A DNA stretch of 32,531 nt from Actinomycetes bacterium (GTDB lineage Bacteria; Actinomycetota; Thermoleophilia; RBG-16-64-13), in assembly GCA_024637095.1 (NCBI GenBank), contig JAGXFV010000032.1, forward strand, positions 68,423 to 100,953, given 5' to 3'. Positions 1,735 to 32,489 of the stretch are shown here, one piece after another. Every line of letters starts with the position of its first letter. Positions within the stretch are counted from its first letter, which is position 1. A program made the translations under genes and the position numbers. The notes under the pieces were generated by a model. It ran no database searches. It was not told where the DNA came from and saw only the letters and a list, made by a program, of their open reading frames with translations.

Positions 1735-2262
1735 ATGGCAACGAGCAAGCGCCGGGAGGAGGGAATCCGCCATCTGCAAAGTGAGATGGATCGGATGCTC
1801 CTCGAGCTCACCGGAGCGCACCGCGTCTACGGTTGCGCTACATGCGCCTTCCGGCCCAACGCAGACGTCTACTTCGCCAAGAGCGACAATGCGATCGTGG
1901 TCAAGCTCGAACTGGCGGGGGTCGACCCCAAGGAAGTTCAACTGGAGGTTAAGAACCGCACGATCCGGATCTGGGGAATTCGGGAGGAGCGGACCCGGTC
2001 GGACAAGGTCTACCAACAGATGGAGATCGCCTACGGCGCCTTCCAGCGGGAGCTGAGGGTCCCCGTCGATGTTAACCTTGACCAGGCCAAAGCGGGCTAT
2101 GAGGCAGGTTTTCTCATCATCACCCTTCCTGTCGTCGAAAGAGAAGCCCGCAAGATCCCCATCGTGCAAAAGACCGGCGCCGACCAGCCGCCCGCCGAGA
2201 GGGCGCAAAAGGACGGCCCCGAAGCCACCGAACTACCGGACGAGGTAGACGATGACCGATAG
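1735..2262 (+). CDS. Small heat-shock protein, Hsp20/alpha-crystallin family
   Basis: A 175-residue ATP-independent holdase chaperone that would bind unfolding proteins in the cytoplasm. The alpha-crystallin domain covers about residues 40-137. It starts with FRPNADVY, contains the core VKLELAGVDPKEV, and ends in GYEAGFLIITLP, a variant of the family's A-x3-n-G-v-L signature. IPI at 141-143 matches the C-terminal I-x-I oligomerisation motif. The tail (150-175) is acidic and probably disordered. The frame is open upstream, but the ATG at 1735 is the first start that gives a normal family length, and GAGGTG lies 8 nt before it. The last 11 nt overlap the start of lon, so the two are almost surely co-translated. 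A TTGACG at 1657-1662 could be a -35 box, but no convincing -10 follows, and no CIRCE or HspR-type inverted repeat is visible. Confidence 0.93.
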   Translation: MATSKRREEGIRHLQSEMDRMLLELTGAHRVYGCATCAFRPNADVYFAKSDNAIVVKLELAGVDPKEVQLEVKNRTIRIWGIREERTRSDKVYQQMEIAYGAFQRELRVPVDVNLDQAKAGYEAGFLIITLPVVEREARKIPIVQKTGADQPPAERAQKDGPEATELPDEVDDDR

Positions 2263-5125
2263 CGAAAAGACGGACAGACCCGAGGAGCAGACGGCCGAGG
2301 AGATCGAAGCGAAGCGGGACGATCCGGGCGCGGAGCCGGACGAGACAGCTGCCGAGGCGCCCGAAGAGACAGCTGCCGAGACGCCCGAAGAGACAGCTGC
2401 CGAGACGCCGGTGGAGAAGGCGGCGGATGAAGACGGGGGGTCCGGGGATTCAGAGCTGAAAACCCCCGAGGTGGTCGCGCTCCTGCCTCTCAAAGAGACC
2501 GTGGTCTTCCCGGAGACCATGATGCCGCTCGCGGTTGGGCAGCCGCGCTCCGTACGTTTGATCGACGACATCCTTCAGGGCGACAAGATGGTCGCGCTGG
2601 TGACGGTCAAGAGCGAAGACGTCGAGAGTCCCGGCCCGGACGACATCTACGAGATCGGCACCCTCTCGGTCATCCAGAAGATGATCAAAGCCCCCGACGA
2701 CACCCTGCGCATCATCGTGCAAGGCATCCGCCGCATCAAGGTGATGGAGGTGACCTCCGAGGAGCCTTACCTGATGGCGCGCGTGCAGGACCTGAGCGAG
2801 ACCGTCGAGGACACCACGGAACTCGAGGCGCTCCACCGCAATTTGGTGTCGGTCTACACCCGAATCATCGAGCTGGTGCCCTACCTCCCGGACGAACTCG
2901 AGATGGCGGCGGCCAATATCGACAACCCCGGAACGCTAGGCTATTTCATCGCTTCGACCATGCGTATAAAGGCCGAGGAGAAGCAGCAGTTGCTGGAAGA
3001 GGGCGACGTGGCCAAACGGCTGCGGCGTTTGACCGAGGTCCTGAATCGCGAACTCGAGGTGCTCGAGCTGGGCTCCAAGATCCAGAACCAGGTCCAGTCG
3101 GAGATGGAGAAGGGCCAGCGGGAATACTTCCTGCGGCAGCAACTCAAAGCCATCCAGGAGGAGCTGGGTGAGACCGACGAGACCCAGGCCGAGGTCAACG
3201 AACTGCGCGAGCGCCTGGACGAAGCCCAGCTTCCCGAGGGAGCCGACAAGCAGGCTCGGCGCGAACTCGACCGTCTAGCCAAGTTGCCCCCCGCGGCTGC
3301 GGAGTACGGCGTCATCCGCACCTATATCGACTGGATCCTCTCGCTACCATGGAACCAGTCGACCGAGGACCAACTGGACATCGCGAATGCCCGTAAGATC
3401 CTGGATGAGGACCACTACGACCTGGAGGACGTCAAAGACCGGATCCTCGAGTTTCTGGCCGTGCAGAAGCTCAAGCGGGAGATCCGCTCCCCCATCCTGA
3501 CCTTCGTGGGGCCTCCGGGAGTGGGCAAGACCAGCCTGGGGCAGAGCGTGGCCCGCGCTCTCGGGCGCAAGTTCGTGCGCATCAGCGTCGGCGGCGTACG
3601 CGACGAGGCCGAGATCCGGGGCCACCGGCGCACTTACATCGGGGCCATGCCCGGCACCATCATCCGCGCTCTGCGCGACACCGAGAGCAACAATCCAGTG
3701 TTCATGATCGACGAGATCGACAAGATGGGCGCCGACTGGCGCGGAGATCCCTCCAGTGCCATGCTCGAGGTGCTGGACCCGGAACAGCACGATACTTTCC
3801 GCGACCACTACCTGGACCTGCCATTCGACCTGTCCCGGGTCTTCTTCATCACGACGGCCAATATGCTCGACACCGTCCCCGGTCCGCTGCGCGACCGGAT
3901 GGAGATCATCCAGATGGCGGGCTATATCGAGGATGACAAACTCAACATCGCCCGGCGTTACCTGATCCCCCGCCAACTCGAGCGTCACGGGCTGATTCCC
4001 GAGCGCGAGGCCGAACCCGAGGGCGGCGAAACCGATCCCGAGCAGGCCGCGAAGCCGACCGAGGGCGAGAACGCACAGAGCGAGAAGGTCGCGGAAGACG
4101 CACAGAGCGAGAAGGTCGGGGAAGACGCGCCTGAGGCTCCCCAAGAGCCAGAAGAGGCCGCCTCGCAAACCGAGGACACCGTCGGCGGCGGCACCGAGCC
4201 CAAAGAAGCGCATGTGCGCGTCGGTGAGCCCTCCCCAGAGGCGCCCGAGGCAGTAAGCGAACTTCCCGAGCTGGACTTCACCGACGAAGCCCTCCGCCTG
4301 ATCATCCAGGGATACACCTCAGAAGCCGGGGTGCGGAACCTCGAAAGGCAGATCGGCACCATCGCCCGTAAGTTCGCCCGAATGGTCGCCGAAGGAGAGG
4401 CCACCCACCTGGAAGTCGACGAGGAGAAGGTCCAGGAGTTCCTGGGCAAACGCCGGGTTTTCAAGGAGAGCAAGCGCAGAACCAGCGATGCGGGCGTTTC
4501 TACCGGTCTTGCCTGGACGCCTACTGGGGGGGATATCCTCTTCATCGAGGCCCGGGCCATGCGGGGGTCGGGCAAGCTAACCTTGACCGGGCAGCTGGGT
4601 GACGTGATGAAGGAGTCCGCGCAGGCCGCGCTCACCTTCATCCGCAGCATCGCCGAAAATCTCGGAGCTCCGACCGATTACTTCCAGGAGCACGACATCC
4701 ACGTGCACGTCCCCGCCGGCGCCATTCCGAAGGACGGTCCCTCCGCGGGTGTGGCCATTACCATGGCTCTGGCCAGCATGGTCACCGGCCGGCCGGTCGA
4801 TTCGAGCTTGGCCATGACGGGCGAGGTAACCCTCACCGGTCAGGTCCTGCCGGTCGGCGGCATCAAAGAGAAGACGCTGGCGGCCCGTCGAGCCGGCCTG
4901 GACAAGGTCTTCCTGCCCGCGCGAAACGAAGCTGACGTCTCTGAGATCAAGGAAGAGTTGGTCGAGGGACTGGAGTTCGTCTACGTGGAGCACGTGGGCG
5001 ACGTGATGGATCGCATCCTGATGAGCGAGGTGCAAGAGAGCGAATCTCCGCACGTGGGCGAGGGTGCGCAGTCCGACTCCTCGCCGGAGCAAGAACCCTC
5101 GCGGGTGGAGGCGGAGAAGATCTAG
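2252..5125 (+). CDS. lon: ATP-dependent protease Lon, with acidic extensions and an acidic insert
   Basis: Hexameric AAA+ serine protease that degrades misfolded and regulatory proteins. At 957 residues it is about 150 longer than typical Lon (roughly 780-820). Residues 1-72 are an acidic extension with three ETAAExPx repeats. The Lon substrate-binding domain starts near 73. Walker A is GPPGVGKTS (420-428) and Walker B is VFMIDEID. The protease domain has the Ser-Lys dyad: Ser831 in KDGPSAG and Lys874 in IKEKTLAA, the same 43-residue spacing as in E. coli Lon. Between HGLIPE (579-584) and LDFTDEAL (674 on) lies an extra Glu/Pro/Ala-rich segment of about 85 residues. This falls within the AAA+ lid (small alpha) subdomain and contains a 9-residue tandem repeat. 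A further acidic tail follows the protease domain. The ATG overlaps the end of the Hsp20 gene by 11 nt, implying coupled translation. Confidence 0.97.
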   Translation: MTDSEKTDRPEEQTAEEIEAKRDDPGAEPDETAAEAPEETAAETPEETAAETPVEKAADEDGGSGDSELKTPEVVALLPLKETVVFPETMMPLAVGQPRSVRLIDDILQGDKMVALVTVKSEDVESPGPDDIYEIGTLSVIQKMIKAPDDTLRIIVQGIRRIKVMEVTSEEPYLMARVQDLSETVEDTTELEALHRNLVSVYTRIIELVPYLPDELEMAAANIDNPGTLGYFIASTMRIKAEEKQQLLEEGDVAKRLRRLTEVLNRELEVLELGSKIQNQVQSEMEKGQREYFLRQQLKAIQEELGETDETQAEVNELRERLDEAQLPEGADKQARRELDRLAKLPPAAAEYGVIRTYIDWILSLPWNQSTEDQLDIANARKILDEDHYDLEDVKDRILEFLAVQKLKREIRSPILTFVGPPGVGKTSLGQSVARALGRKFVRISVGGVRDEAEIRGHRRTYIGAMPGTIIRALRDTESNNPVFMIDEIDKMGADWRGDPSSAMLEVLDPEQHDTFRDHYLDLPFDLSRVFFITTANMLDTVPGPLRDRMEIIQMAGYIEDDKLNIARRYLIPRQLERHGLIPEREAEPEGGETDPEQAAKPTEGENAQSEKVAEDAQSEKVGEDAPEAPQEPEEAASQTEDTVGGGTEPKEAHVRVGEPSPEAPEAVSELPELDFTDEALRLIIQGYTSEAGVRNLERQIGTIARKFARMVAEGEATHLEVDEEKVQEFLGKRRVFKESKRRTSDAGVSTGLAWTPTGGDILFIEARAMRGSGKLTLTGQLGDVMKESAQAALTFIRSIAENLGAPTDYFQEHDIHVHVPAGAIPKDGPSAGVAITMALASMVTGRPVDSSLAMTGEVTLTGQVLPVGGIKEKTLAARRAGLDKVFLPARNEADVSEIKEELVEGLEFVYVEHVGDVMDRILMSEVQESESPHVGEGAQSDSSPEQEPSRVEAEKI
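2342..2413 (+). repeat. 24-bp tandem repeat x3 in the 5' part of lon
   Basis: Three consecutive 24-nt units encode ETAAEAPE, ETAAETPE and ETAAETPV in the acidic N-terminal extension of Lon. The units differ by only a few bases and keep frame, so copy number could vary without breaking the gene. Confidence 0.95.
4073..4126 (+). repeat. 27-bp tandem repeat x2 in the Lon acidic insert
   Basis: Two adjacent 27-nt units with a single base difference encode AQSEKVAED and AQSEKVGED. The repeat lies in the extra acidic segment of the Lon lid region and suggests that the insert grew by local duplication. Confidence 0.95.
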
Positions 5126-5158
5126 AGCACGGCCGACTCAAGGGGCGACTGCGGACTC

Positions 5159-5620
5159 TTAGTGCGCGGCGCCCCCGGCCGCCCGCTCGAGGCACGCCGC
5201 TTGCCGCAGCCAATCCCGGATCTCCCGCGCCTCTGCTTCGGGCAGGTATTCGCTCAGCCGGAGGAGCAGGTCGGGCGGCAGTTCCCGGCGGAAGGCCGCC
5301 AGCACCGCCCGCACCGCGCGCACGGCTTCTTCCGAGCGTGCGTACTCACCCGCGCTCATCACCTCACGCGCGAGCGCTTCCATCTCGACCCTCAGAGCTC
5401 GGACCTCTTCGCGCGCCGCCCGACTCTTCTCGGTCAGCAGATCGCGGGAGGTGGTCGCCAGGCGGAAGTCGAGCGGTTCGCCCCGACGGTGGCCGGCAGC
5501 CACCTCCATGAGGCGTACGCCCAAATCCCAACCCAGGTTGCGAAGGCCTCTTCCCCGCTCGCCTGCCGCGGATAGCCGTCGCCGCAACCTCTCAACCGGC
5601 GTGTTTGATGCCTCGGTCAT
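5159..5620 (-). CDS. Hypothetical helical protein, last gene of the AmmeMemoRadiSam run
   Basis: I do not recognise this 153-residue protein. It is rich in Arg, Glu, Ala and Leu and looks wholly alpha-helical, with a probable coiled coil around residues 60-90 (EKSRAAREEVRALRVEMEAL). A possible second helical bundle follows (ELPPDLLLRLSEYLPEAEAR). There is no signal peptide, membrane segment or cysteine cluster. The ATG at 5620 is preferred because GGGAGAG lies 6 nt before it; an in-frame TTG at 5635 has no ribosome site. The gene begins 17 nt after the stop of the AMMECR1 gene and is probably co-transcribed with it. It converges on lon with 33 nt between the two stops and no clear terminator. 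Confidence 0.7.
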   Translation of the reverse strand: MTEASNTPVERLRRRLSAAGERGRGLRNLGWDLGVRLMEVAAGHRRGEPLDFRLATTSRDLLTEKSRAAREEVRALRVEMEALAREVMSAGEYARSEEAVRAVRAVLAAFRRELPPDLLLRLSEYLPEAEAREIRDWLRQAACLERAAGGAAH

Positions 5621-5637
5621 TTGCCACTCTCCCAATT

Positions 5638-6153
5638 TCAGTCATGCCGCGTCACGGTGAAGCGGTAGAGGCGATAGCGGTCTCGCTCCGGATGGATCCC
5701 AGCTTTTCGGCAGGTGAGGCGGAACTGCTGCTGCGCCTCGTCCACCCCTTCGAGATCCGGCAGCAACAATGCCTGGCGTCCGTCTTCGGTGCGTACAATT
5801 ACACCGTAACGCTTTGGGTCCAGTTCCTCCACCCCCGCTATCTCTTCCGCGGGATGCAGGACGTCCACCTTGACGCGGAGCCCTTCCAGTTCCCGCTCGG
5901 CAAGAGGTGGGAAACGCGGGTCGCGCGTGGCCGCGGCGACCGCGTTGCCCACCACCTCCTCTTCGACGGTGGGCTTGGTCGCCGCGATGGTGCCTAGGCA
6001 GCCCCTCAAGGAGCCATCTGGTGAGTGCAGAGAGACAAAGATCCCGGCGCCTTCGGGCGCCACGCCCGCAGGCAGCTCGGCGGTCACTTGCCCGCCCTCC
6101 TTCACCCATTTCTCAATGGCGCTCCTGGCGAGCTCTACCAGCGGATCAGACAT
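5638..6153 (-). CDS. amrA: AMMECR1-domain protein (AmmeMemoRadiSam system protein A)
   Basis: A 171-residue single-domain AMMECR1 family protein. The family's most conserved motif is present as LRGCLG (49-54), followed by the expected GNAVAAATRDPRFPPL and ELEGLRVKVDVL segments. The biochemical activity is unknown. In bacteria and archaea the gene recurs beside a MEMO/LigB gene and a radical SAM gene, as here, and the trio is named after that association. The frame stays open for 49 codons upstream, but the family N-terminus starts at MSDPLVELAR. That ATG (6153) overlaps the end of the LigB/MEMO gene by 8 nt, which points to coupled translation. In some genomes AMMECR1 and a LigB domain are one polypeptide; here they are separate. 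Confidence 0.93.
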   Translation of the reverse strand: MSDPLVELARSAIEKWVKEGGQVTAELPAGVAPEGAGIFVSLHSPDGSLRGCLGTIAATKPTVEEEVVGNAVAAATRDPRFPPLAERELEGLRVKVDVLHPAEEIAGVEELDPKRYGVIVRTEDGRQALLLPDLEGVDEAQQQFRLTCRKAGIHPERDRYRLYRFTVTRHD

Positions 6154-6988
6154 CGAGGCTCCCCCCGCTCGCGGATCGTTCCGTGTCGAGCATGGCCACC
6201 AGATAGCCCACCCCGAAAGGACCTTCGTACGAAAGGACCTGAGCGCTATAGGGAATATCCTGCAGCATTCCCAGGAGAACCAGGAGCGACCGGTAGCCAC
6301 ACTCGCCCGCGGTTTCCCGAAGGCTTTCAGGGATGGAGAGTAGATCTTCCATCCGATCCCGCCTCACGGCCTCGACCACTCGGGCGTCGAACTCCGCCGC
6401 CTCGGGTGAGTAGCCCGCCGGCGCCTCCGGGCGCAGTCGGTGGCTGAGATCGCCGCTGGCCACGAACAGCACGCGGCCGAGATGCGCCGTCAGAGCCTCG
6501 ACGATGGCCCGGCCGAAGTCCACATGAGCGGGGAGGCTTCGCAGGGAAAAGGCCAGCAGGACCAGACGAGCAGCCGGGCGGATCTCATCAGCCAAAAAGT
6601 AGAGCGGAACCAGAGCCCCGTGATCCAGGGGAAAGGGTTGTCCGTCGCTTCCGCCCAAAGCCCGAACGGACACTTGGTGCTCGAGCGAGCTGCGCATGAT
6701 CGCGTTCGCCAGTTCCGGATTGCCCTCGAGTTCCAGCCTGACCTGGGGTGCACCAAACACGGAGAAGGAGCCCTCGTAGCGATCCGCGACGCAGACGCCC
6801 ATTGCCTCCCTCGTCAGCGGAGCGTGCGGCGAGAGCAGGACAAGGGTGTCCGGTGCCGTTTCTGCCACGAGCCCACTCAACGTCCGCATAGCCCGGATCG
6901 TCGAGTCGACCTCCGGCTGACGTGCGCCCCCAATCTCGGGGACGATGATCGGGGGGTGGGGGGTGATCACGGCGCCGACCAGACTCAT
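6146..6988 (-). CDS. amrB: LigB/MEMO-type protein (AmmeMemoRadiSam system protein B-like)
   Basis: A 280-residue protein with the class III extradiol dioxygenase (LigB) fold shared by MEMO proteins. It keeps the metal-type histidines: His11 in TPHPP, His55 in LSPHAPLT, His123 in LDHGALVPLYFL and His183 in SGDLSHRL. The N-terminus (MSLVGAVITPHPP) resembles the LigB half of LigB-AMMECR1 fusion proteins more than the classical MEMO start (usually RxPAVAGxFYP), so the exact subfamily is uncertain. True ring-cleavage activity is not implied by this context. The ATG overlaps the stop of the radical SAM gene by 4 nt, and the 3' end overlaps the AMMECR1 gene by 8 nt, so all three should be translated together from one mRNA. 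Confidence 0.88.
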   Translation of the reverse strand: MSLVGAVITPHPPIIVPEIGGARQPEVDSTIRAMRTLSGLVAETAPDTLVLLSPHAPLTREAMGVCVADRYEGSFSVFGAPQVRLELEGNPELANAIMRSSLEHQVSVRALGGSDGQPFPLDHGALVPLYFLADEIRPAARLVLLAFSLRSLPAHVDFGRAIVEALTAHLGRVLFVASGDLSHRLRPEAPAGYSPEAAEFDARVVEAVRRDRMEDLLSIPESLRETAGECGYRSLLVLLGMLQDIPYSAQVLSYEGPFGVGYLVAMLDTERSASGGSLDV

Positions 6989-8103
6989 GCCGGCTCCTCC
7001 GCCTCAGCCGCGGCCGCGGACCGCACGGAGTCCGGGGCGTGGGTGTCCGGCACAGCCGCGGCGCCGGCCAAGTCCGAGATGACCATTCGCAGCTCGTATC
7101 CGCAAGAGGCGCAGCGGGCGCCCTCTAGATTCAACCGGCCCAAAGCGTATCCCCGCCTTTCGATCGCGATCTCCCCGCAGGAGGGGCATCTGGTGGACTC
7201 GCCGTCGTGGCCCGGGAGATTGCCCGAGTAGATGTAACGCAGGCCCTCCTCCTTCCCGATACGGAGCGCCCGCTCCACCGCCCTGATCGGCGTAGGCCCC
7301 ACGTCCATCATCCGGTGGGTCGGATAGAAGCGGGAGACGTGCCAGGGGATATCCGGATCGACCGAGGCCAGGAAGCCGGCCAGTTGCCGCAGTTCTTCCT
7401 CGCCGTCGTTCCGGCCGGGAATGAGCAAGGTGGTGACCTCGAGCCAAACCCCCATGTCATGCAGCCGCCGAATGGAATCCAGCACCGGCTTCAGCCGGGC
7501 GCCTACTATCGAGCGGTAGAAGTCGTCCGAGAAAGACTTGAGGTCGACGTTGGCCGCGTGCAGGTAACCTTCCATTTGGGCCAACGCCTCGCCGGTCATA
7601 TACCCGTTGGTCACGAAGACGTTCTTCAGGCCCGCCCGGACCGCTTCGCGCGAACAGTCACGCGCGTACTCGAAGAAGATGGTGGGTTCGGTGTAGGTGT
7701 AGGAGATGCTGCTGCAGCCGCGCTCCTGGGCGCTCTCCACCACCAGGTCCGGCGGGAACAACTTCCCCCGCACCTCACCCTGGTCCCGAGGCATCTGACT
7801 GATATCGGCGTTCTGGCAGAAGCGGCAGGTGAAGTTGCAGCCCACGGTGGCCACGGAGTAGGTCTTGCTCCCCGGGAGGAAGTGAAACAACGGCTTCTTT
7901 TCGATGGGATCGACCGCTGCCGAGATCGCACAAGAGTAGGTGTAGGTATACAGCTTGCCATCGAGGTTCTCCCGCACCCCGCACAGCCCGCGCTCCCCAG
8001 GCTCGATCCTACAGTGATGTGCGCAGAGGAAGCAACGGACCGTTGGTCCGCCCCTCCAGATTTCCCATAGCGCCGCTTCGACCGGCTTGACAGATTGCCC
8101 CAC
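6985..8103 (-). CDS. amrS: AmmeMemoRadiSam system radical SAM enzyme
   Basis: A 372-residue radical SAM protein. The 4Fe-4S/SAM motif is Cys89-x3-Cys93-x2-Cys96 in GCNFTCRFCQNADIS. An N-terminal cysteine set (Cys24, Cys27, Cys31, Cys41, ending in GLCGVRENLDGKLY) is typical of this PflA-like family. Near the C-terminus two CxxC pairs (RCPSCGE and RCASCGYEL) look like a zinc ribbon. The substrate of the family is not known. Beyond this, the last 30 residues are Ala-rich and probably disordered. The start is a GTG at 8103 with GAGGAG 8 nt upstream; an ATG 8 nt before it is out of frame. The gene lies 104 nt after the PHP gene and overlaps the LigB gene by 4 nt. Confidence 0.94.
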   Translation of the reverse strand: MGQSVKPVEAALWEIWRGGPTVRCFLCAHHCRIEPGERGLCGVRENLDGKLYTYTYSCAISAAVDPIEKKPLFHFLPGSKTYSVATVGCNFTCRFCQNADISQMPRDQGEVRGKLFPPDLVVESAQERGCSSISYTYTEPTIFFEYARDCSREAVRAGLKNVFVTNGYMTGEALAQMEGYLHAANVDLKSFSDDFYRSIVGARLKPVLDSIRRLHDMGVWLEVTTLLIPGRNDGEEELRQLAGFLASVDPDIPWHVSRFYPTHRMMDVGPTPIRAVERALRIGKEEGLRYIYSGNLPGHDGESTRCPSCGEIAIERRGYALGRLNLEGARCASCGYELRMVISDLAGAAAVPDTHAPDSVRSAAAAEAEEPA

Positions 8104-8207
8104 GTCGACATCTCCTCGTTCAGGTTCCCGCCTTCGAGCGTGCGTACCGTCGTGTAAGCGTGTCTACCCCAGACAGAGGCGGGAGATTCGCAAGAAGACC
8201 GCGATCG

Positions 8208-8897
8208 TCAAACGGGATAGATGAAGCGCCGGGCTTTGTTCGCTCCCGTTCGCAGGCGATAGGCGCGAGCCCTCACGGTATCCCGCAGGCCGGCTTCGGG
8301 CACGGGACGGGCCACCCGCATCAGCCGCAAGAACGTCGCCCGGGAGGGTAATTCGGTCAGCTCGACAAAGACTCGGCCCACCTCGCCCGCGTAGTGGGCG
8401 TCACTTCCGGCGCCAAGCAGTGCGCCGCTCCGCGCGGCGAGAGCTAGCGCCTGACGGTCGAATGTCGGATCGAGGATACGGCCGTTTCGCACCTCGATGA
8501 CGTCGCAGGAACGAGCCAGTTGCTCCAGATGCTTCCGCCCCATGGTCGAACGGCGCTGGGTGTCGTACGCGTGTGGAAGGTAGACCAGGCCGCCTTGAGC
8601 CCGGATCGACGCAGTGGTCTGCTCGGGCGAGAGGCCTTCGGGAATCCGTTCGGTCAGATACAGCCCAATCAGTTCGCCGCAAGAAGTCGTGATCTCCTGA
8701 CCGGCCACGACGCGGGGCAGCCGGGGGTTCTCCTGAGAAATCCGGAGGCACTCCTCGGCGCCGGAAAACTCATCGTGGTCGGTGACCCCGATCAGGTCGA
8801 TTCCTCGCGCCCCTGCCAGTTCGAGCAGCCGGCGCGGGGATAGTAGGCCGTCCGCGGAGGCGTTCGTATGGTTGTGCAGGTCAAGGCGGAAGCTCAC
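8208..8897 (-). CDS. PHP-domain metal-dependent phosphoesterase
   Basis: A 229-residue stand-alone PHP protein, a fold used for trinuclear-metal phosphoester hydrolysis. The ligand motifs appear in order: HNH (8-10) in DLHNHTNASADG, DHDE in GVTDHDEFSG, Glu in AGQEITT, His in LPHAYD, and GSDAH near the C-terminus. Related enzymes hydrolyse 3',5'-nucleoside bisphosphates or short oligonucleotides; the substrate here is not evident. The start is a GTG with GGGAG 6 nt upstream. It stands between the small Arg-rich gene (56 nt upstream) and the radical SAM gene (104 nt downstream), so it may belong to the same transcription unit, although the 104-nt gap could hold a separate promoter. Confidence 0.9.
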   Translation of the reverse strand: MSFRLDLHNHTNASADGLLSPRRLLELAGARGIDLIGVTDHDEFSGAEECLRISQENPRLPRVVAGQEITTSCGELIGLYLTERIPEGLSPEQTTASIRAQGGLVYLPHAYDTQRRSTMGRKHLEQLARSCDVIEVRNGRILDPTFDRQALALAARSGALLGAGSDAHYAGEVGRVFVELTELPSRATFLRLMRVARPVPEAGLRDTVRARAYRLRTGANKARRFIYPV

Positions 8898-8953
8898 GGG
8901 GTCTCCCGTGCGGGTGCAGGCCGACGCGAACTCAGAGAGACCGTCCCGCCCCG

Positions 8954-9193
8954 CTAGACATCAGGAAATGTGCCGGGGGAACGGCGGCGCCGGCGGTCGC
9001 GTAGTACGCGTTTGCCGCCATAGTCGCCACGTGTGCGGCGCTCGCCCTGACGTCGATCGACTACTACCTCCACGTCCTCGATGTCCGCGAAGCGCTTCCT
9101 GAACTCTTCGTAGTACTCATCGCCGAGTTCGCGGGGTATCACGTAGTAGATCAACTGCCCCTGCCTTTCGCCGTCCGCAACGCCCGCTCGCAT
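8954..9193 (-). CDS. Small Arg-rich protein with DRR...GERR motif
   Basis: A 79-residue basic protein of unknown function. The first half (residues 13-48) looks like a small alpha/beta unit, IYYVIPRELGDEYYEEF then DVEVVVD. The second half carries DRRQGERR and DRRRRR, a repeated Asp-Arg-Arg pattern I associate with short uncharacterised proteins of actinobacteria-like genomes. The clean hydrophobic-then-basic design and in-frame stop just ahead of the PHP gene support a real gene. The ATG at 9193 has no strong ribosome site, so the start is uncertain. Confidence 0.6.
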   Translation of the reverse strand: MRAGVADGERQGQLIYYVIPRELGDEYYEEFRKRFADIEDVEVVVDRRQGERRTRGDYGGKRVLRDRRRRRSPGTFPDV

Positions 9194-9387
9194 AAGCCCG
9201 TAGGGTCTTCGTTACCCATCATAGTCGCCCTCCGGTCTTATTGTCCAAGCACCCGGTTAACCCCTGCAAAGCCGTGCACTATCTTCTGTCGGACGGGGCG
9301 CCCGGTACGAGTTTTGGGAGGCGTCCGCGAGACGAGCGGATATGCTACTGTGCGGTCGATCGATCGGACGGAGCGGCCTTGCAGGAA

Positions 9388-10572
9388 ATGCCTTCGAGGG
9401 ATAAGAAGACCGGGCTCCAGATGCCCTCCCGCCGGCCACTCGCCGGGCTCGTTCTCACCACCCTGGTCCTCCTTCTCTTCGTGGGCCTTCTCAGTTGGTG
9501 GTTCGTTTCATCGCGTGCTCCGGAAGCCGAGGTGCCGGAACTGCGCGGGTTGACGCTTTCCGAAGCCACCTCCCTGGCTCAGCTCGCCGGATTCAGCCTC
9601 ACGCCTGTCGCCGGGAACAGCGCGGCCCAGACGGAAGAACCCAACGCCGTTGTCCGCCAACAGCAACCCGAGTCGGGCTCTAAAGTCACCCAGGGCCAGC
9701 CCATCGTCGTCACGCTGGGTTCCGCCACGGTCCACAACCTCACCATGCCGGATCTCTCCGGCCTCGACCTTGCCCAGGCCACGGACGCACTGGTTCGGGC
9801 AGGGTTGGTCTTGGCAGAGGTGCTCGCGGGCGAGCCGGGCAGCGGCAGCCCGGACAAGGTGGTTAGCCAGCAGCCGGAGGCGGGGCAGGCAATCGCGGCC
9901 GGCGAGGCGGTGACTTTGTGGATACCCCCCGAGCTCGCGAAGGTGCCCCGGCTCGTGGGGTCCACTCCGCAGGAGGCCCGCTCGCTGGTCCGCCGATCGG
10001 GGCTCGAGCTCCAACTGCTCGAGCAGGCCAGCGACAAGAGCCTGCCGGGGACCATCATCCGGCAGAGCCCCGAGCCCGGCAGCGAGATTGCCTCCGGAGG
10101 GCAGGTGGTGTGTGTGGTGAACGCCGCAGTCGATACGGTTGGGGAGGACGGTCCCGAAGCGGGAGGGGCTCCAGATACCCATGAGGATCTCTTCCACTCG
10201 CTTGCCTCCTGGTACTCGTTCCCTGTCCTGCACCCCGCGGTCCTGCCCGGCGACCTAAAGCTCGGTGGCGCCGCCGGAAATCCGCGGCACGTGGCTTCGA
10301 CGGCGGGTGCTTCCGGCTTCGAGGTGACTTACGAGGGGCGCGGCTCGGCTGCTCGGCTCGTTTTGATGGAGGGTAACTGGATAGATCCTCCAGGTGCCCT
10401 GGAGCAGACAACTCTGGACGTGCGGGGCCACGCCGCCACGCTCTTACATGAGGGTGACGAGATCGTACTATTCTGGGAGGAGAGCGGCATCCGCTATGCC
10501 CTACGGGCCTACGGAGTGGAGAAAACCGACGTTGTTGCCGTCGCGAACCAAATGAAAGCCGTCGGAGAATGA
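9388..10572 (+). CDS. Membrane-anchored PASTA-repeat protein with C-terminal DUF4367-like domain
   Basis: A 394-residue single-pass membrane protein. A transmembrane helix at about 20-41 (LVLTTLVLLLFVGLLSWWF) leaves the rest outside the cell. Three PASTA domains follow at about 48-110, 119-178 and 184-244, each with the Q-x-P-E-(A/S)-G-x-x hallmark (QQQPESGS, SQQPEAGQ, RQSPEPGS). PASTA repeats bind peptidoglycan or muropeptides. Residues 268-394 form a separate domain (FPVLHPAVLPGDLKL to VVAVANQMKAV) that resembles DUF4367, found in anti-sigma-like envelope proteins; this is a weak resemblance. The ATG at 9388 is chosen because it precedes the helix by a normal short cytoplasmic tail; 9421 is an alternative, and neither has a well-spaced ribosome site. 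The stop overlaps the kinase ATG (ATGA), so the two are coupled. Confidence 0.88.
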   Translation: MPSRDKKTGLQMPSRRPLAGLVLTTLVLLLFVGLLSWWFVSSRAPEAEVPELRGLTLSEATSLAQLAGFSLTPVAGNSAAQTEEPNAVVRQQQPESGSKVTQGQPIVVTLGSATVHNLTMPDLSGLDLAQATDALVRAGLVLAEVLAGEPGSGSPDKVVSQQPEAGQAIAAGEAVTLWIPPELAKVPRLVGSTPQEARSLVRRSGLELQLLEQASDKSLPGTIIRQSPEPGSEIASGGQVVCVVNAAVDTVGEDGPEAGGAPDTHEDLFHSLASWYSFPVLHPAVLPGDLKLGGAAGNPRHVASTAGASGFEVTYEGRGSAARLVLMEGNWIDPPGALEQTTLDVRGHAATLLHEGDEIVLFWEESGIRYALRAYGVEKTDVVAVANQMKAVGE

Positions 10573-12407
10573 CGAACGAGAAGGATAACCCGGGGCCCGG
10601 CCCGGTTGAAGGCAAGGACCCGGACACTTCCGGCGACCCCGGCCCGAAGGCCGAGGAGCCGCGCGATCTCTACATGAACCGCTACGAACTGACCGAGGTG
10701 GTCGGCCGGGGCGGCACCTGCACGGTGTTCCGGGCGTGGGACACTCGGCTCCAGCGCTACGTCGCCATCAAGCGGCTCGAGGACCCTCTGCTTGAAGATG
10801 CGCACTCCCGGGCCCGCTTCAACCGTGAGGGCCGCGCCATCGCCCGGCTCTCACACCCGCACCTCGTGACCCTGATCGACCGCGGCTCCACGGAGGACGA
10901 GGAGTATCTGGTCTTCGAGTACGTGGAAGGCCGCTCGCTCAAGGATCTTATCCGTGAGGGCGGACCGTTGGAGCCTCGCGACGCGGTGCACATCACCGGA
11001 CAGGTGGCGGAAGGGCTGGCCCAAGCCCATCGGGCGGGGATCGTGCATCGGGACGTGAAGCCCCAGAACATCCTGCTCGATGCCGAAGGCCGAGCCAAGT
11101 TGACCGACTTCGGCATCGCCACCGGCGCCGACCTGACCAAGGTTACCCGCGTGGGCGCCATCATCGGCAGCGGCCGCTACATGTCTCCGGAGCAAGTGCA
11201 AGGAAGGCCCGTGGACGGGCGCTCCGACCTTTACTCCCTGGGCATCGTGCTCTACGAGATGCTGACCGGCAGCCCGCCCTTCGACGCCACCAGCATGGCC
11301 GATATCGGCCGGCAGCACGTCAAAGACCGGCCGGCACTACCCACCGAGCTGCGGCCGGACCTTCCGCCGGCACTCGCCCGGGTAGTGATGCGTTGCCTGG
11401 AGAAGTTGCCCGAGAGCCGCTTCCAGTCGATGGACGAACTGTTGGGTGCGTTCGTGGGCCTGGATCTCTACCGCCTGGAACGGACCTCCGGCGGCCTGGT
11501 CGAGAACCTGCGCCGGGTTGGATTAGGCCGCCGTGAGCGCAGCGGCGAGAGCGGTGAATGGACACCGCCTCCGCTTGAGCCGCCGGACGAAGCCATGCCG
11601 GAACCGCCTCGAGGCGAGGTGGCCCGCGGACGTCGTGGCGGCGAGACCCCTTCTCGCCGGACGGCCACGGGACGGCGGGTGGACCGACGGCGGGAACCGG
11701 GCAGAAACAACTCCCGATACCTGTGGGCCGCCCTCCTGGCAGGTGTCGTCGCGGTGATAGTCCTGGCAGGCCTGCTGCTATTCTCCGGCCCCGGAGATGC
11801 CCCCGACGTGGTCGGGCTTACCCTGGACGAGGCCAATGCCCAGGCGAGTGAGGAGGGCCTCGATCTCGAAGTAGAGGTGGTTCCCTCTTTCGATACCGCA
11901 GCCACCGTCATCTCCCAGGATCCGGCGCCTGGTGAAGACGCCCCGGGGGGCGTGCTGCGGGTGACCGCCACCAAGGAACCCGAGGCGGTGTCCGTCGCTG
12001 ATCTGTCTGCCTTGGATCCCGAGGGTGACCAGGAAGAGCACTCCGAGGAACTGAATAACCTGACCGACGATCAGGCGGATACCGCCTGGTCCAGCGAAGG
12101 CTACGGCACCGCAGACTTTGGCGCCACCGGCAAGAGCGGCGTCGGCGTTTCGTTCACCCTCTCCGGGGCCGCCACCCTGGTCCGGCTGCTGCAGACGGGA
12201 CAGACCGGTTGGCAGGGGTCGCTCCAGGTGCAGGATTCCGGCGGTGCCTGGCAGCCTCTCGGCGAACTGGGTGGCGAGGATACCCAGACTCTCACGCTGG
12301 AACAGCCGATCGCGGCCGGGCGCATCTGGATCACGGCGCTGCCGCCCGAGGCGGGGGAGGACGGGCGGCACCGAGTATCGATCAGCGAGTTGGGCTTCTA
12401 TCGCTAA
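10569..12407 (+). CDS. PknB-type Ser/Thr protein kinase with one PASTA and a discoidin-like C-terminal domain
   Basis: A 612-residue transmembrane receptor kinase. The kinase domain (about 39-300) has the glycine loop GRGGTCTVF (46-54), VAIK (Lys68), HRDVKPQN (160-167), DFG (180-182), and SPE in place of APE (206-208), so it should be active. A basic/Pro-rich juxtamembrane linker (320-382) leads to a helix at 384-406, one external PASTA domain (411-468, SQDPAPGE) and a C-terminal beta-rich domain (475-612). That last domain has a coagulation factor 5/8 (discoidin)-like pattern: NNLTDDQADTAWSSEGY at its start and RIWITALPPE...ISELGFYR at its end. Such domains bind carbohydrate or other surface ligands. 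Most PknB relatives have several PASTA repeats; here three more sit on the co-translated upstream protein. The stop faces the thiamine-binding gene across 85 nt. Confidence 0.95.
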   Translation: MTNEKDNPGPGPVEGKDPDTSGDPGPKAEEPRDLYMNRYELTEVVGRGGTCTVFRAWDTRLQRYVAIKRLEDPLLEDAHSRARFNREGRAIARLSHPHLVTLIDRGSTEDEEYLVFEYVEGRSLKDLIREGGPLEPRDAVHITGQVAEGLAQAHRAGIVHRDVKPQNILLDAEGRAKLTDFGIATGADLTKVTRVGAIIGSGRYMSPEQVQGRPVDGRSDLYSLGIVLYEMLTGSPPFDATSMADIGRQHVKDRPALPTELRPDLPPALARVVMRCLEKLPESRFQSMDELLGAFVGLDLYRLERTSGGLVENLRRVGLGRRERSGESGEWTPPPLEPPDEAMPEPPRGEVARGRRGGETPSRRTATGRRVDRRREPGRNNSRYLWAALLAGVVAVIVLAGLLLFSGPGDAPDVVGLTLDEANAQASEEGLDLEVEVVPSFDTAATVISQDPAPGEDAPGGVLRVTATKEPEAVSVADLSALDPEGDQEEHSEELNNLTDDQADTAWSSEGYGTADFGATGKSGVGVSFTLSGAATLVRLLQTGQTGWQGSLQVQDSGGAWQPLGELGGEDTQTLTLEQPIAAGRIWITALPPEAGEDGRHRVSISELGFYR

Positions 12408-27464: not shown

Positions 27465-30400
27465 CTAAGTTGGCGGAGCTTCCCACACCCAGCCTCGGGG
27501 CCCGCGGTGAAAGCCGTGACGGGTCATCAGGCCCCTCGCCTCCTTGGGCGGGGGACCGCCGTTCCAGCGCTCAACCGAGATCCGCGAAAGCCGCGTCCCC
27601 AGGTAATCGATCAGAGCTGCAAAGCCCTCGTCGACCAACTCCGCCGACGCCCCCGTGCGCACCTCGATTCGGGCGCCGCTGTCCGCCGCGACCAAAAGGG
27701 GCAGGCCTCGCTGCTGCACCACCCAGGTGGACGGAACCCTGCTGAAGGTCAACCGGCCCTCCTCCGCCGTCTCCTCGATGGCCTTCAGCAGAGCGGGGTC
27801 GAGGGCGTTCATGACCACGAAACGCGCGGGGTCTTCCTCGAAGGACCGGAGGGCCTCGACCGTGTCGGGCAGGGCATGCTGGACCCCGGGTAGGCCGGCG
27901 ACGAAGTATCCCCGGCGGACCTCGGCGCGCATCTCCATGCGTTCCAAGGTGCGCTCGGCCGAGTATAAATCCCAGGCTCCTTTCTCCCTCTCGCGAGAGC
28001 GCCGGGTAACCACCGCCCAACGCTCGAGCAGCTGCCGGGCCTGACGCCGGGCCCGCTCTTCGGGCTCGAGTTCCGGTCCCAGCACGGGCAATCGATGGAC
28101 GAGCGTCCAGCGGCCTTCGTGGAGGTGACGAAGCTGCTCCTCGACCGGCTCCGTCTGGCCCAGCCTCTCCCGAACCCTGCGGGAGGCGGAGCGCAGGGCG
28201 GTCCGGCTGGGGCGGGCGCCCATCCGGGTGCGCCCGGGACGAGGACCGAAGCCATGGGAATGCCGCGCTCCCGGCATATCCCCCGGTCGGCGCTCGGAAC
28301 GCAGCCGCTGGAGATCCTCCTCCAGGGAGCTCCTCTGACCGGAAACGCTCCCGCCTCTACGCGAAGGGGGACCCATGTGCGCGGACAAGCGGCGAAGCAC
28401 ATCAAGGCTATCGTTTGTGGTCATTCCCGCGGCGGCGAGTTCGGCGAGAGCCGCTTCCGCGGCGGCGGGCGAGAGACCCAGGGCCGCCGCGATGTCGGCC
28501 AAGAAGAGCGCGCCCTCTCCGGCAAGCAGTTCATGCACCCGACGGGCATTCTCACTGAAGGCGGCGATCTCCGGGGGAAGGCCAAGGAAGGCACGCGCCT
28601 CCCCCCGGAAGAAGAAGGCCACCGCCCCGCGCGCGAGATCCTGTCCCGCCTCGGCCACCCAGACGACTTCCCCTTGGCGGCTCAGTCCGTCCAGCAGGGC
28701 GGGCCGGTAGCCAGGTACCCGGGAGGGCAGCACGTCCCGCTCCCAGACGCTCATCGGGAGGAAGAAACCGCGCAGCTGCCCCAGCACCTCGCGCAAGGCC
28801 GCGGGGCCGGGGGCGCCGGGGGCGCCGGGGGCGAGATGCTGGTGAGCGGTGAGGAAATCGGCATACGCGCTAAGGGGCACGGCGCGGACCTGGCGCCGAA
28901 GCTGAGCCAGGGAGCGGCGATGCATGCGCTCGAGGTTGCCCACCTCGACGTATTCGACGGAGCGCTCGCCGGCCCAGGCGCGAGGACCGCCGGCCCAGGC
29001 GCGGGGATGATCTTCCGCCGGGCCTTCCCCGGGGACGCCGGCGGCTCCACGGGGTCCGGCCTCCGCCCCTTCCCCGCGGAAGCGGCCCCTGGCCACCAGG
29101 CGTTCGTCTACTAGTCGTTCGAGTTCCGCGCGCACCCGATCCTCGGGCAGGCCGTAACGCGCCGCCGGCTCGCGTGCCTCGAGCACGCCGCGCCGCCGAA
29201 TGTATCGCGCGATCAGCCGCCGCAGATTCTCCTCGTCCACCTCGTCCTCGTCCGAGGCCAGGGGTCGGTAATCGTCCAGATACTCCACGGGCACCCAGCG
29301 CAGTTCGGGGTGCCCCTCAGACCCGGAGAGCTCCACCTGCGCGACGCGGCCCTGAGCCGCCAGCCGCTCGAGCCACTCCCCCGGATCGACTTCCGATCTC
29401 GCCCCGAGTTCCGCCTGCGACAGGTCCCCCAACTGCTCGAGCACCAGCAGCAACTCCTCCGCCGTGCGCGCCCGCGCCCCCGGGGCCGTGCGCTGAAGAG
29501 ACTCCTCCACCTCGCTGAGCGCCTCCGGTTGGAGAAGATCGCCCAGGTCCACGCCCCGCAGCAGATCGCCCAGCAGTTCGCGGCTGACCTGCAGTCTCCC
29601 CAGGCGGCCTTCGGCCTTGGGCGTATCCCACTCATAGAGATACTGGTTGGTGAAATTCCAGATGAGGCTCGCAGCAACAGGAGAGGGCGTAGATGAGTGA
29701 ACGATCCTCACCTCGATGGCGCCGCTCCGCACCTCGGCCAGCACCTGTTCGAGCGCGGGCAGGTCCATTACGTCCTCGAGCACGTCCCGGTAGGTCTCCG
29801 CCACCATCGGAAAGTCGGGGAAGCCCTTGACCGCCTGAAGCAGGTCTTTGGCGCGCAGCCGCTGAAGCCAGAAGGGAGTGCGCCGGCCCCGCGACGCCGG
29901 CAGCAGCAGCGCCCGCGCCGCGTTCTGCCGGAAGCGGGCACCGAATACGGGTGAGCTAGGCAGGTCGGCCAACAAGCGTTGGCGAGCCTCCTCCGGACCG
30001 ATCGAGGTGACCAGGTCATCCGGGAAGGCCGCCTCCGCCTCGGGGAAGCGCAGGAGAATACCGTCGTCGCCCGCCTGGGCCTCTACCTCGACGCCGGTCC
30101 GCTCCCGCAGAGCGTCCCGCAGGACCACCGACCAGGCCCCGTTCACCCGCCCTCCGAAGGGAGAATGCAGCACCATGCGGGGATCGCCCACGGCATCCTC
30201 GAAGAACTCGACCACGAGCCGGAGGTCGGTGGCCAGCGCTTCCCGCTCCACCTGCCCGGCCAGATACTGGAGTAAGTGGCGGGCGGAATTCTCGTCCAGC
30301 GCGTGCTCCTGCCCCAGCCAGTCGACCACCTCTCGCACCGCGGAGGCCTCCCAGTGACGGCCTATCTCGCGCAGGTCGTCGAACTCGAGCTGCTCTCCCA

Positions 30401-32354
30401 CCCGCTCCAGCCGCTCCCCCACCTGCCGGCGAAAAGCCCCCAGACGACGCCCCAGAGCCGGCTGACGCCAGGGAAGATCTCCGTGCCAGAAGGGCATGCG
30501 GGCGAAGGCGCCCGGTGCCTCGGAGACCACCACTCGGTCGTCGTTGATGTCGAGCACCCGCCAGACCCGGCTGCCCAGCATGAAGCAGTCCCCCACCCTC
30601 GTCTCGAAGACGAACTCCTCGTCGAGCTCCCCCACCTTGGTCTTGCGGTCCGGCAGGTACGCGCCGAACATGCCCGTGTCGGGGATGGTCCCGCCGTTGG
30701 TCAACGCAAGCATGCGCGATCCCGGAAGGGCGATCAGCCGATCGTTGACCCGGTCCCAGGCGAGCCGTGGCCGGAGCTCCCCGTGGGCCTCGCTGGGATA
30801 GCGTCCCGAGAGCATCTCGAGCACCCCGCGGAAGGCCCGCTCGCTCAGCTGATGGTAGGGATAGGCCCGCCGGACGAGCCGCAGTAGCTCCGCCGTGTCC
30901 CACTCCTCCACGGAAACCATGGCCACGATTTGCTGGGCCAGGACGTCGAGCGCGTTCTGGGGCGTGCTCACCTCCTCGACCTCGCCGGCGAGCATCCCGC
31001 CCGCCACCGCAGCAGCCTCCACCAGATCCTCTCGGTGGGTCGGAAAGATGCGGCCCTTGCTGGTCTGGCCCACCAGGTGACCCGACCGGCCGACCCGCTG
31101 CAATCCTTGCGAAACCCCCTTGGGAGACTGCAGTTGCACGACCAGGTCGACCGAACCGATGTCGATGCCCAGTTCGAGAGAGGAGGTGCCGACGAGCGCC
31201 CGCATCCGTCCAGCCTTGAGATCTCGCTCAAGCCGCAGGCGGACCTCCTTGGACATGCTGCCGTGATGGGCCCGTATCGGATTCTCGTACAGACCGCGTC
31301 CCAGTGCCGCGGTGCCGATCCCCAAAGCCACTCCGTCTGCCATCAGACCCGAAGCGTCACCGCGGGCCTCGGCCGCGAACTGCTCGTTCAACCGGTCCGC
31401 AGTGCGCTCCGCGAGTCGACGGTTGTTGGTGAAAATCAGCGTGGTGCGGTGTTGGCGGATGAGTTCGGTCAGCCTTGGAATGATCGCCGGCCAGATGGAA
31501 TCGCCGGGTGGCCGCATGTAGTCTTCGAGCACGGTCTCCACTCGCAGTTCGAGCGGCTTGTGGTAACCCGAGTCCACGATGGTGACCGGGCGGGACGGCG
31601 CGGGTTGTTCATCGCCCAGAGGGCCGGGCCCGTCCAGGTCGGGCGATTCGCCGAAGCCGCCGAGAAAGCGGGCAACCTCCTCCAATGGGCTGATGGTCGC
31701 CGAGAGCCCAATGCGCTGAACGGGCTCGGCGGCCAGCCGCTCCAGCCTCTCCAGACTCAAGGCCAGGTGCACGCCACGCTTGCTCCCGGCCATCGTGTGA
31801 ATCTCGTCCACGATCACCGTGTGGACCGTGCGAAACATTTCCCGGGCGCGCGGACTGCTCAGCAGGAGATACAGAGACTCGGGTGTGGTAACCAGGATGT
31901 GTGGCGGACGGTTGGCCAGAGACCGCCGTTCCCGGGCCGGGGTGTCGCCGGAGCGAACCGCCGCACGCACTTCGGGAAAGGGAAGGCCGAGCTCTTCGCC
32001 GTGGTCGCGAATCCCCCGGAGCGGCACCCTTAGATTGCGGTGGATGTCGTTGTTCAGAGCCTTGAGCGGGGAGAGGTAGACGATGCGGACACCAGGCTCG
32101 GGGGCGCCCCCGGCCCCCGCAGTCGACCCCTGCGGTGCGGCGGGTGCGGCGGACGCCGCGAGCTCTCGCCCCAGGCGATCGATTCCCCAGAGGAAAGCGG
32201 CCAGCGTCTTGCCCGAACCGGTCGGAGCCAAGATGAGGGTGTGCTCGCCCGCCTGAATGGCCGGCCAGCCGCGCTCCTGCGGGGGCGTGGGGCTGCCAAA
32301 GGCCTCGGCAAACCAGGCACGAACAGGGGCAGAGAAGCTATCGAGAGCTGTCAT
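27465..32354 (-). CDS. lhr: Lhr-type large superfamily 2 DEAD/DEAH helicase
   Basis: A 1629-residue ATP-dependent 3'-5' helicase of the bacterial Lhr family, linked to DNA repair; mycobacterial Lhr is about 1500. The helicase core is N-terminal: Walker A APTGSGKT (43-50), DEIH in VIVDEIHTM, and the late motifs GTSSLELGIDIG and QRVGRSGH. It is followed by the winged-helix and Lhr-specific C-terminal regions. The extra length includes low-complexity inserts, GAPGAPG and a duplicated RAWAG segment, plus an Ala/Gly-rich stretch soon after the Walker A region. The ATG at 32354 precedes the conserved LDSFSAPVRAWF; an in-frame ATG at 32402 is an alternative, and neither has a clear ribosome site. 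No neighbouring exonuclease or MPE gene is seen. Confidence 0.95.
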   Translation of the reverse strand: MTALDSFSAPVRAWFAEAFGSPTPPQERGWPAIQAGEHTLILAPTGSGKTLAAFLWGIDRLGRELAASAAPAAPQGSTAGAGGAPEPGVRIVYLSPLKALNNDIHRNLRVPLRGIRDHGEELGLPFPEVRAAVRSGDTPARERRSLANRPPHILVTTPESLYLLLSSPRAREMFRTVHTVIVDEIHTMAGSKRGVHLALSLERLERLAAEPVQRIGLSATISPLEEVARFLGGFGESPDLDGPGPLGDEQPAPSRPVTIVDSGYHKPLELRVETVLEDYMRPPGDSIWPAIIPRLTELIRQHRTTLIFTNNRRLAERTADRLNEQFAAEARGDASGLMADGVALGIGTAALGRGLYENPIRAHHGSMSKEVRLRLERDLKAGRMRALVGTSSLELGIDIGSVDLVVQLQSPKGVSQGLQRVGRSGHLVGQTSKGRIFPTHREDLVEAAAVAGGMLAGEVEEVSTPQNALDVLAQQIVAMVSVEEWDTAELLRLVRRAYPYHQLSERAFRGVLEMLSGRYPSEAHGELRPRLAWDRVNDRLIALPGSRMLALTNGGTIPDTGMFGAYLPDRKTKVGELDEEFVFETRVGDCFMLGSRVWRVLDINDDRVVVSEAPGAFARMPFWHGDLPWRQPALGRRLGAFRRQVGERLERVGEQLEFDDLREIGRHWEASAVREVVDWLGQEHALDENSARHLLQYLAGQVEREALATDLRLVVEFFEDAVGDPRMVLHSPFGGRVNGAWSVVLRDALRERTGVEVEAQAGDDGILLRFPEAEAAFPDDLVTSIGPEEARQRLLADLPSSPVFGARFRQNAARALLLPASRGRRTPFWLQRLRAKDLLQAVKGFPDFPMVAETYRDVLEDVMDLPALEQVLAEVRSGAIEVRIVHSSTPSPVAASLIWNFTNQYLYEWDTPKAEGRLGRLQVSRELLGDLLRGVDLGDLLQPEALSEVEESLQRTAPGARARTAEELLLVLEQLGDLSQAELGARSEVDPGEWLERLAAQGRVAQVELSGSEGHPELRWVPVEYLDDYRPLASDEDEVDEENLRRLIARYIRRRGVLEAREPAARYGLPEDRVRAELERLVDERLVARGRFRGEGAEAGPRGAAGVPGEGPAEDHPRAWAGGPRAWAGERSVEYVEVGNLERMHRRSLAQLRRQVRAVPLSAYADFLTAHQHLAPGAPGAPGPAALREVLGQLRGFFLPMSVWERDVLPSRVPGYRPALLDGLSRQGEVVWVAEAGQDLARGAVAFFFRGEARAFLGLPPEIAAFSENARRVHELLAGEGALFLADIAAALGLSPAAAEAALAELAAAGMTTNDSLDVLRRLSAHMGPPSRRGGSVSGQRSSLEEDLQRLRSERRPGDMPGARHSHGFGPRPGRTRMGARPSRTALRSASRRVRERLGQTEPVEEQLRHLHEGRWTLVHRLPVLGPELEPEERARRQARQLLERWAVVTRRSREREKGAWDLYSAERTLERMEMRAEVRRGYFVAGLPGVQHALPDTVEALRSFEEDPARFVVMNALDPALLKAIEETAEEGRLTFSRVPSTWVVQQRGLPLLVAADSGARIEVRTGASAELVDEGFAALIDYLGTRLSRISVERWNGGPPPKEARGLMTRHGFHRGPRGWVWEAPPT
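28808..28833. repeat. 9-bp tandem repeat within lhr (Gly-Ala-Pro codons)
   Basis: About three copies of a 9-nt GC-only unit encode GAPGAPGAP in the C-terminal half of Lhr. It is an in-frame microsatellite-like expansion in a linker. Confidence 0.85.
28967..29007. repeat. 21-bp tandem repeat x2 within lhr
   Basis: Two 20-nt copies (28967-28986, 28988-29007) with one mismatch and a 21-nt period encode a repeated RAWAG segment in the long linker before SVEYVEVGN. The period keeps frame. Confidence 0.9.
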
Positions 32355-32489
32355 GTCACTAATGGTACCCGTGGGCGCGGCGGTCGGCGCAAGCGTGGCC
32401 ATTGGCGACAGCGCCCGCGGAGCTCCTGCGGTTGCGGGAGGCCGACCGACACTCTTCGGGCTTGCCGCAAGAGGGTATGCTCAAAGGCA

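Follow-up and report, generated by a model that had tools for sequence, protein, structure and literature searches.

Conserved DRR-PHP-amrS-LigB-AMMECR1 gene order in a family of Thermoleophilia and its possible relation to tRNA modification

Gene content of the locus

We analyzed a stretch of 32,531 nucleotides (the window) from the Actinomycetes bacterium assembly GCA_024637095.1 (Actinomycetota; Thermoleophilia), which spans positions 68,423 to 100,953 of the forward strand of contig JAGXFV010000032.1. The subject of this work is a run of genes within it that includes the three AmmeMemoRadiSam components, namely a radical S-adenosylmethionine (SAM) enzyme (amrS), a B component of the LigB/Memo type and an AMMECR1-domain protein. 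We determined computationally which genes the locus contains, its operon structure (by footprinting), how far it is conserved, where amrS and AMMECR1 come from, and the linkage to mia genes in relatives; families were assigned by comparing Pfam and NCBIfam profile scores with their cut-offs.

All six open reading frames proposed by the initial annotation of this DNA are present on the minus strand, in the upstream-to-downstream order DRR (a small DRR-rich protein), PHP (a metallo-phosphoesterase), amrS, LigB, AMMECR1 and HEL (a helical protein) (Table 1). The close packing of the trio was also recovered, with overlaps of 4 nucleotides between amrS and LigB (6985-6988) and of 8 nucleotides between LigB and AMMECR1 (6146-6153), and the identity of its members was borne out by the TIGR04337, Pfam LigB and TIGR04335 scores. 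Some of the earlier labels had to be refined. The DRR gene exists, but its start had been set at ATG 9193, whereas the alignment of 16 orthologues begins with MIYYVIP and makes TTG 9154 the likelier start. The protein that had been described simply as helical is more exactly a DUF2267-related half-domain, for which the profile was over its cut-off in three of the five orthologues scanned and slightly under it in the window copy. Comparison with the sister species gave ratios of nonsynonymous to synonymous substitution of 0.12-0.18, which indicate purifying selection on all six genes.

Table 1. Coordinates of the features at the locus, in positions of the window.
Feature	Coordinates	Strand	Description	Basis or remark
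Promoter-like site	9218..9247	-	TGGACA-N18-TATGAT	Upstream of DRR
DRR	8954..9154	-	66 amino acids; beta-alpha-beta start and Arg/Asp-rich tail	Class-restricted family
PHP	8208..8897	-	PHP-family metallo-phosphoesterase, 229 amino acids; metal ligands intact	PF02811 and PF13263 over cut-off
amrS	6985..8103	-	AmmeMemoRadiSam radical SAM enzyme, 372 amino acids	TIGR04337, 338 bits (cut-off 220)
amrB-like	6146..6988	-	LigB/extradiol-dioxygenase-type protein, 280 amino acids	Pfam LigB PF02900, 152 bits
amrA	5638..6153	-	AMMECR1-domain protein, 171 amino acids	PF01871, 144 bits; TIGR04335, 125 (cut-off 99)
HEL	5159..5620	-	DUF2267-related helical protein, 153 amino acids	DUF2267, 29.4 bits (cut-off 29.8)
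PASTA protein and Ser/Thr kinase	9241..12407	+	Divergent; operon boundary	Pfam
Lon protease	2252..5125	+	Convergent; operon boundary	Pfam Lon

Conservation and predicted transcription unit

The order and strand of DRR, PHP, amrS, LigB and AMMECR1 are kept in all 15 relatives that carry a close homologue of the operon amrS. These relatives represent 11 genera of a single family and include, among those with names, Actinobacteria bacterium RBG_16_64_13 and a Thermoleophilia metagenome-assembled genome. HEL is the next gene in 14 of the 15, the contig of the fifteenth stopping at that point, and LigB and AMMECR1 form one fused protein in four.

The promoter-like site upstream of DRR (9247-9218) is the sole sigma-70-like site within positions 5000-9400 (0.3 expected). 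Across the family, a TATNAT -10 motif is found upstream of DRR in 16 of 16 genomes (1.3 expected) and in the AMMECR1-HEL gap of 12 of the 13 relatives with a real gap there (0.6 expected). The internal gaps contained none: 0/7 between DRR and PHP, 0/11 between PHP and amrS (these two sets amounting to 18 gaps of at least 12 nucleotides each), 0/3 between amrS and LigB, and 0/8 between LigB and AMMECR1. Given that the motif occurs before DRR and before HEL and is absent in between, the natural unit is predicted to be an operon of five genes, DRR-PHP-amrS-LigB-AMMECR1, expressed from one promoter upstream of DRR, and HEL is probably a separate transcription unit in most relatives. The initial annotation had raised a single transcript across all six genes. 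Membership of one unit with the trio is supported for DRR and PHP, whose order is kept and for which the only promoter-like motif lies before DRR; in the case of HEL, its own -10 motif rules it out as a fixed member of the transcript in most relatives.

Origin of the amrS and AMMECR1 genes

A survey of amrS neighborhoods had been proposed as a check on the extra genes, and its outcome depends on taxonomic distance: DRR and PHP accompany amrS throughout the family, but the 76 nearest amrS loci outside it contained no match to DRR, LigB, AMMECR1 or HEL within up to 8 kb and a single PHP gene, located 4 kb away. A broad association of DRR and PHP with amrS is thus ruled out beyond the family.

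The operon amrS keeps the three cysteines of its CX3CX2C motif (CNFTCRFC) in all 16 orthologues. It was probably acquired horizontally, because in the amrS tree it nests among stand-alone amrS genes of Thermodesulfobacteriota, Planctomycetota and other phyla (support 99/96), while the second, stand-alone amrS of the family is the class-native copy (100/100). Vertical inheritance was ruled out for the operon gene, the class-native copy being the stand-alone paralogue. In the genome of the window this paralogue (L111:7896-9467; G000:C24:115453-116472) lies alone, as it does across the family, and is 36% identical to the operon copy. Within the class, both AMMECR1 and amrS occur in 32 cases, amrS only in 3, AMMECR1 only in none and neither gene in 26.

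In the AMMECR1 tree, the copy of the family belongs to a mia-linked clade (100/99), with which three sequences from other phyla also group, apart from the Memo-AMMECR1 clade of other phyla, in which the Memo fusion and the amrS trio are found. Neither the amrS, which groups with stand-alone amrS of other phyla (99/95), nor the AMMECR1 of the window falls in the clades of the trios from other phyla; these trios are represented in the amrS tree by only three sequences. The locus resembles the AmmeMemoRadiSam system (TIGR04335/04336/04337) in that its three components are adjacent and overlapping, with the A component and the radical SAM enzyme over the curated cut-offs. Unlike that system, it has a B component of the LigB type, under the Pfam Memo cut-off, a radical SAM enzyme outside the clade found beside the Memo-AMMECR1 fusions of other phyla, and two extra genes, DRR and PHP, at its head. 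The clade origin of the trio genes is a feature of the lineage and lies outside the NCBIfam definition.

Linkage of LigB/Memo and AMMECR1 to mia genes in Actinomycetota

In two families of the same class (f3 and f6), miaB is placed directly upstream of a B gene, either LigB or Memo, and AMMECR1 in 21 of 22 AMMECR1 loci, the exception being a locus at a contig edge, and dapF lies downstream of the pair in 21 of the 22. Both miaA and miaB were over the curated NCBIfam cut-offs in the cases scanned. The B gene scanned in f6 is a canonical Memo (TIGR04336, 303 bits) and that of f3 is of the LigB type; because both types occupy one slot, a functional equivalence between them is suggested. The arrangement recurs elsewhere in the phylum. 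Of 27 extended loci from further families, taken as the highest-scoring LigB loci in a draw spread evenly over the phylum and hence descriptive of close LigB types, 26 contain AMMECR1, 23 contain miaB (22 of them immediately upstream), 23 contain miaA and 22 contain dapF. At 12 of these 27 loci, the gene directly before miaB encodes an RNase-AM-type PHP. In the family of the window, the gap between miaB and dapF is only miaA-sized (0.7-1.0 kb), and therefore its LigB/AMMECR1 pair sits elsewhere.

The operon shares with the miaB-LigB/Memo-AMMECR1-miaA-dapF cluster of Actinomycetota the LigB-AMMECR1 pair, split or fused, the radical SAM-LigB-AMMECR1 order and, in many clusters, a leading PHP gene. 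It differs in that amrS takes the place of miaB, miaA is lacking and the PHP belongs to a different subfamily. As judged from sequence, the operon is a family-specific build in which a LigB/AMMECR1 pair of the mia-linked type is joined by a probably acquired amrS, a PHP and a class-specific Arg-rich protein.

As a separate observation, four actinobacterial genomes of 7-9.5 Mb (L376-L379) encode a LigB-like protein between miaB and dapF with no adjoining AMMECR1, and the metal-site residues are lost in all three of these proteins that were aligned.

The LigB-type, PHP and DRR proteins

The LigB-type protein of the window is narrowly over the cut-off of the Memo profile TIGR04336 (29.9 against 26) and under that of Pfam Memo PF01875 (23.0 against 27), and PF01875 had no match in those genomes of the family that were searched; we class it as LigB-type. 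In human MEMO1, the residues H49, H81 and C244 bind iron, and the protein influences iron homeostasis (PMC11081632). A corresponding set of His, His, Asp-x-x-His and Cys is found among the conserved residues of the window protein (H11, H55, H123, D180, H183, E229 and C230), and metal-site residues are shared with MEMO1 and the class III extradiol dioxygenases. In contrast to these proteins, an invariant Glu-Cys pair, E229-C230, is kept, and the third metal ligand could be the Glu, as in the dioxygenases, or the Cys, as in Memo. Retention of the residues that match the MEMO1 metal site makes it plausible that this protein carries out a redox step at iron.

The metal-site motifs of the PHP protein (HNH, TDH, G.E, LPH, EV.NG and GSDAH) are invariant in 16 orthologues. 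Its structure model has a predicted local distance difference test (pLDDT) score of 90, and the closest folds are the PHP domain of RNase AM (top match 7ug9) and TM0559. Fold and metal ligands are shared with RNase AM / 3',5'-nucleoside bisphosphate phosphatase, from which the window protein differs in its shorter length and in the sequence affinities that are weighed below. The operon PHPs and the PHP domains linked to GT4 glycosyltransferases form separate clades (100/100), and the idea that the operon PHP arose by recent duplication of the GT4-linked PHP in these genomes is thus unsupported. In the genome of the window, a GT4-PHP fusion gene (L252:1771-5749; G000:C23) follows genes for a CDP-alcohol phosphatidyltransferase and a myo-inositol-1-phosphate synthase, and similar fusions are present in other families of the class.

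The DRR protein has 30 of its 66 positions invariant across the 16 orthologues. Homologues occur in 124 of 249 genomes of the class, and none was found in a draw of 246 genomes from the other classes of the phylum. The AlphaFold model (pLDDT 75) consists of a short strand-helix-strand unit followed by an Arg-rich tail without regular secondary structure; comparison of this model with the PDB gave no match under an E value of 0.001, and a fold assignment was dropped. In most of the loci read outside the family, DRR is preceded by genes for an EF-G-like protein and a zinc-ribbon protein and followed by an RNase H gene. This run of EF-G-like GTPase, zinc-ribbon protein (without a Pfam match), DRR and RNase H constitutes a class-specific gene set (L179:6960-10362; L178-L197).

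Proposed function and alternative explanations

The radical SAM enzyme, the plausible iron redox step and the mia context combine to suggest that the operon encodes an RNA-base modification module tied to tRNA adenosine 37 or to a product of it, a tentative reading to which we give somewhat less than an even chance. What we infer here is the substrate, the individual catalytic steps and what DRR does: AmrS would perform a radical step on a modified tRNA base, the iron-binding LigB/Memo-type protein together with AMMECR1 would carry out a further (redox) step on that base, PHP would act as a nucleotide phosphatase or an RNase, taking off a phosphate or trimming RNA, and DRR would act as an accessory facing RNA or the ribosome. 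More doubtful is the specific form of this proposal, in which the LigB/Memo-AMMECR1 pair would itself be a hitherto unassigned tRNA position-37 modification enzyme working with a radical SAM partner, either MiaB or AmrS, and in many cases with a PHP, and the operon would be that module moved to a new place and complete in itself. A phosphorylated substrate, which the initial annotation had suggested from the presence of PHP, may still be entertained, and it gains weight because the RNase-AM-type PHP recurs before miaB-LigB-AMMECR1 in relatives; this recurrence points to RNA or nucleotides and not to an arbitrary phosphorylated metabolite.

Several results weigh against the RNA-modification proposal. 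No mia gene lies in or near the operon of the window, and AMMECR1 loci outside the phylum showed none within 1.5 kb, so that the mia linkage, which is genomic context and not biochemistry, may be a phylum-specific synteny. The PHP protein is far under the cut-offs of the RNase AM-type profiles (47.2 against 375 bits for NF047791 and 45.6 against 400 for NF041577), and within the class its closest sequences are the PHP domains of the GT4 fusions (158-203 bits). Taken by itself, the conserved gene order is a weak argument for joint function, being confined to one family and matched by the flanks, where the divergent kinase is retained in 14 of the 15 relatives and the convergent Lon is also syntenic. 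In addition, control searches found Memo and AMMECR1 in archaea (AMMECR1 in Haloferax volcanii and Sulfolobus acidocaldarius, among others), which are not known to have an N6-isopentenyladenosine (i6A) pathway; a role restricted to i6A would thus be impossible across these protein families as a whole, and the exact base may differ among lineages.

The affinity of the PHP protein for GT4-linked domains leads to a different explanation, a small-molecule pathway in which a phosphorylated compound (a sugar, an inositol or a prenyl derivative) is modified by AmrS and the LigB-type enzyme and dephosphorylated by PHP, the mia linkage being an old synteny. We regard this as rather unlikely. It is favored by the inositol-phosphate setting of the nearest PHP kin in the genome of the window and by the small aromatic molecules that LigB/extradiol enzymes use as substrates; however, the separation of the operon and GT4-linked PHPs into two clades means that the substrate need not transfer, and drift would hardly account for a pair packed tightly between miaB and miaA (miaB-B-A-miaA) whose B slot takes either LigB or Memo. 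An unlikely possibility of similar rank is that only the trio works jointly and that DRR and PHP are passengers sharing its promoter, their conservation reflecting family-level synteny. The roughly equal synteny of kinase and Lon, the confinement of the DRR and PHP neighbors to the family and the width of some PHP-amrS gaps, up to 202 nucleotides, agree with this, whereas the unbroken order in 15 relatives, the lack of the motif in 18 DRR-PHP and PHP-amrS gaps and the independent recurrence of a PHP-radical SAM-LigB-AMMECR1 order, with miaB, in 12 loci speak against it. Finally, the iron-binding residues shared with MEMO1 would fit a housekeeping module for iron, copper or redox, of the kind proposed for the human protein, with no dedicated RNA substrate. 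This we consider improbable, as it accounts neither for the linkage to mia genes nor for the EF-G/RNase H setting of DRR nor for the presence of PHP.

The value of the phylum-wide mia linkage is that it makes the function of the AmmeMemo pair directly testable. In 2019, Burroughs and colleagues reportedly connected Memo both with the modification of nucleotide bases and with that of isoprenoids; a linkage to mia genes would suit both, and it may be partly noted there already. The collection of papers searched contained nothing on the function of AmmeMemoRadiSam. Conservation of Memo and AMMECR1 extends from archaea to humans. A 2024 paper (PMC11081632) describes what MEMO1 primarily does at the molecular level as unknown.

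Other features of the window

In relatives, a gene for an RtcB RNA ligase is found between HEL and Lon (for example, L130:5726-7213), and it is absent from this position in the window and in the sister species. The Lon protease of the window is extended at its N terminus by an acidic, low-complexity segment, and a long insertion at approximately residues 590-680, also acidic, separates the AAA module from its lid. A large Lhr-type helicase of 1645 amino acids is encoded on the minus strand at positions 27465-32402.

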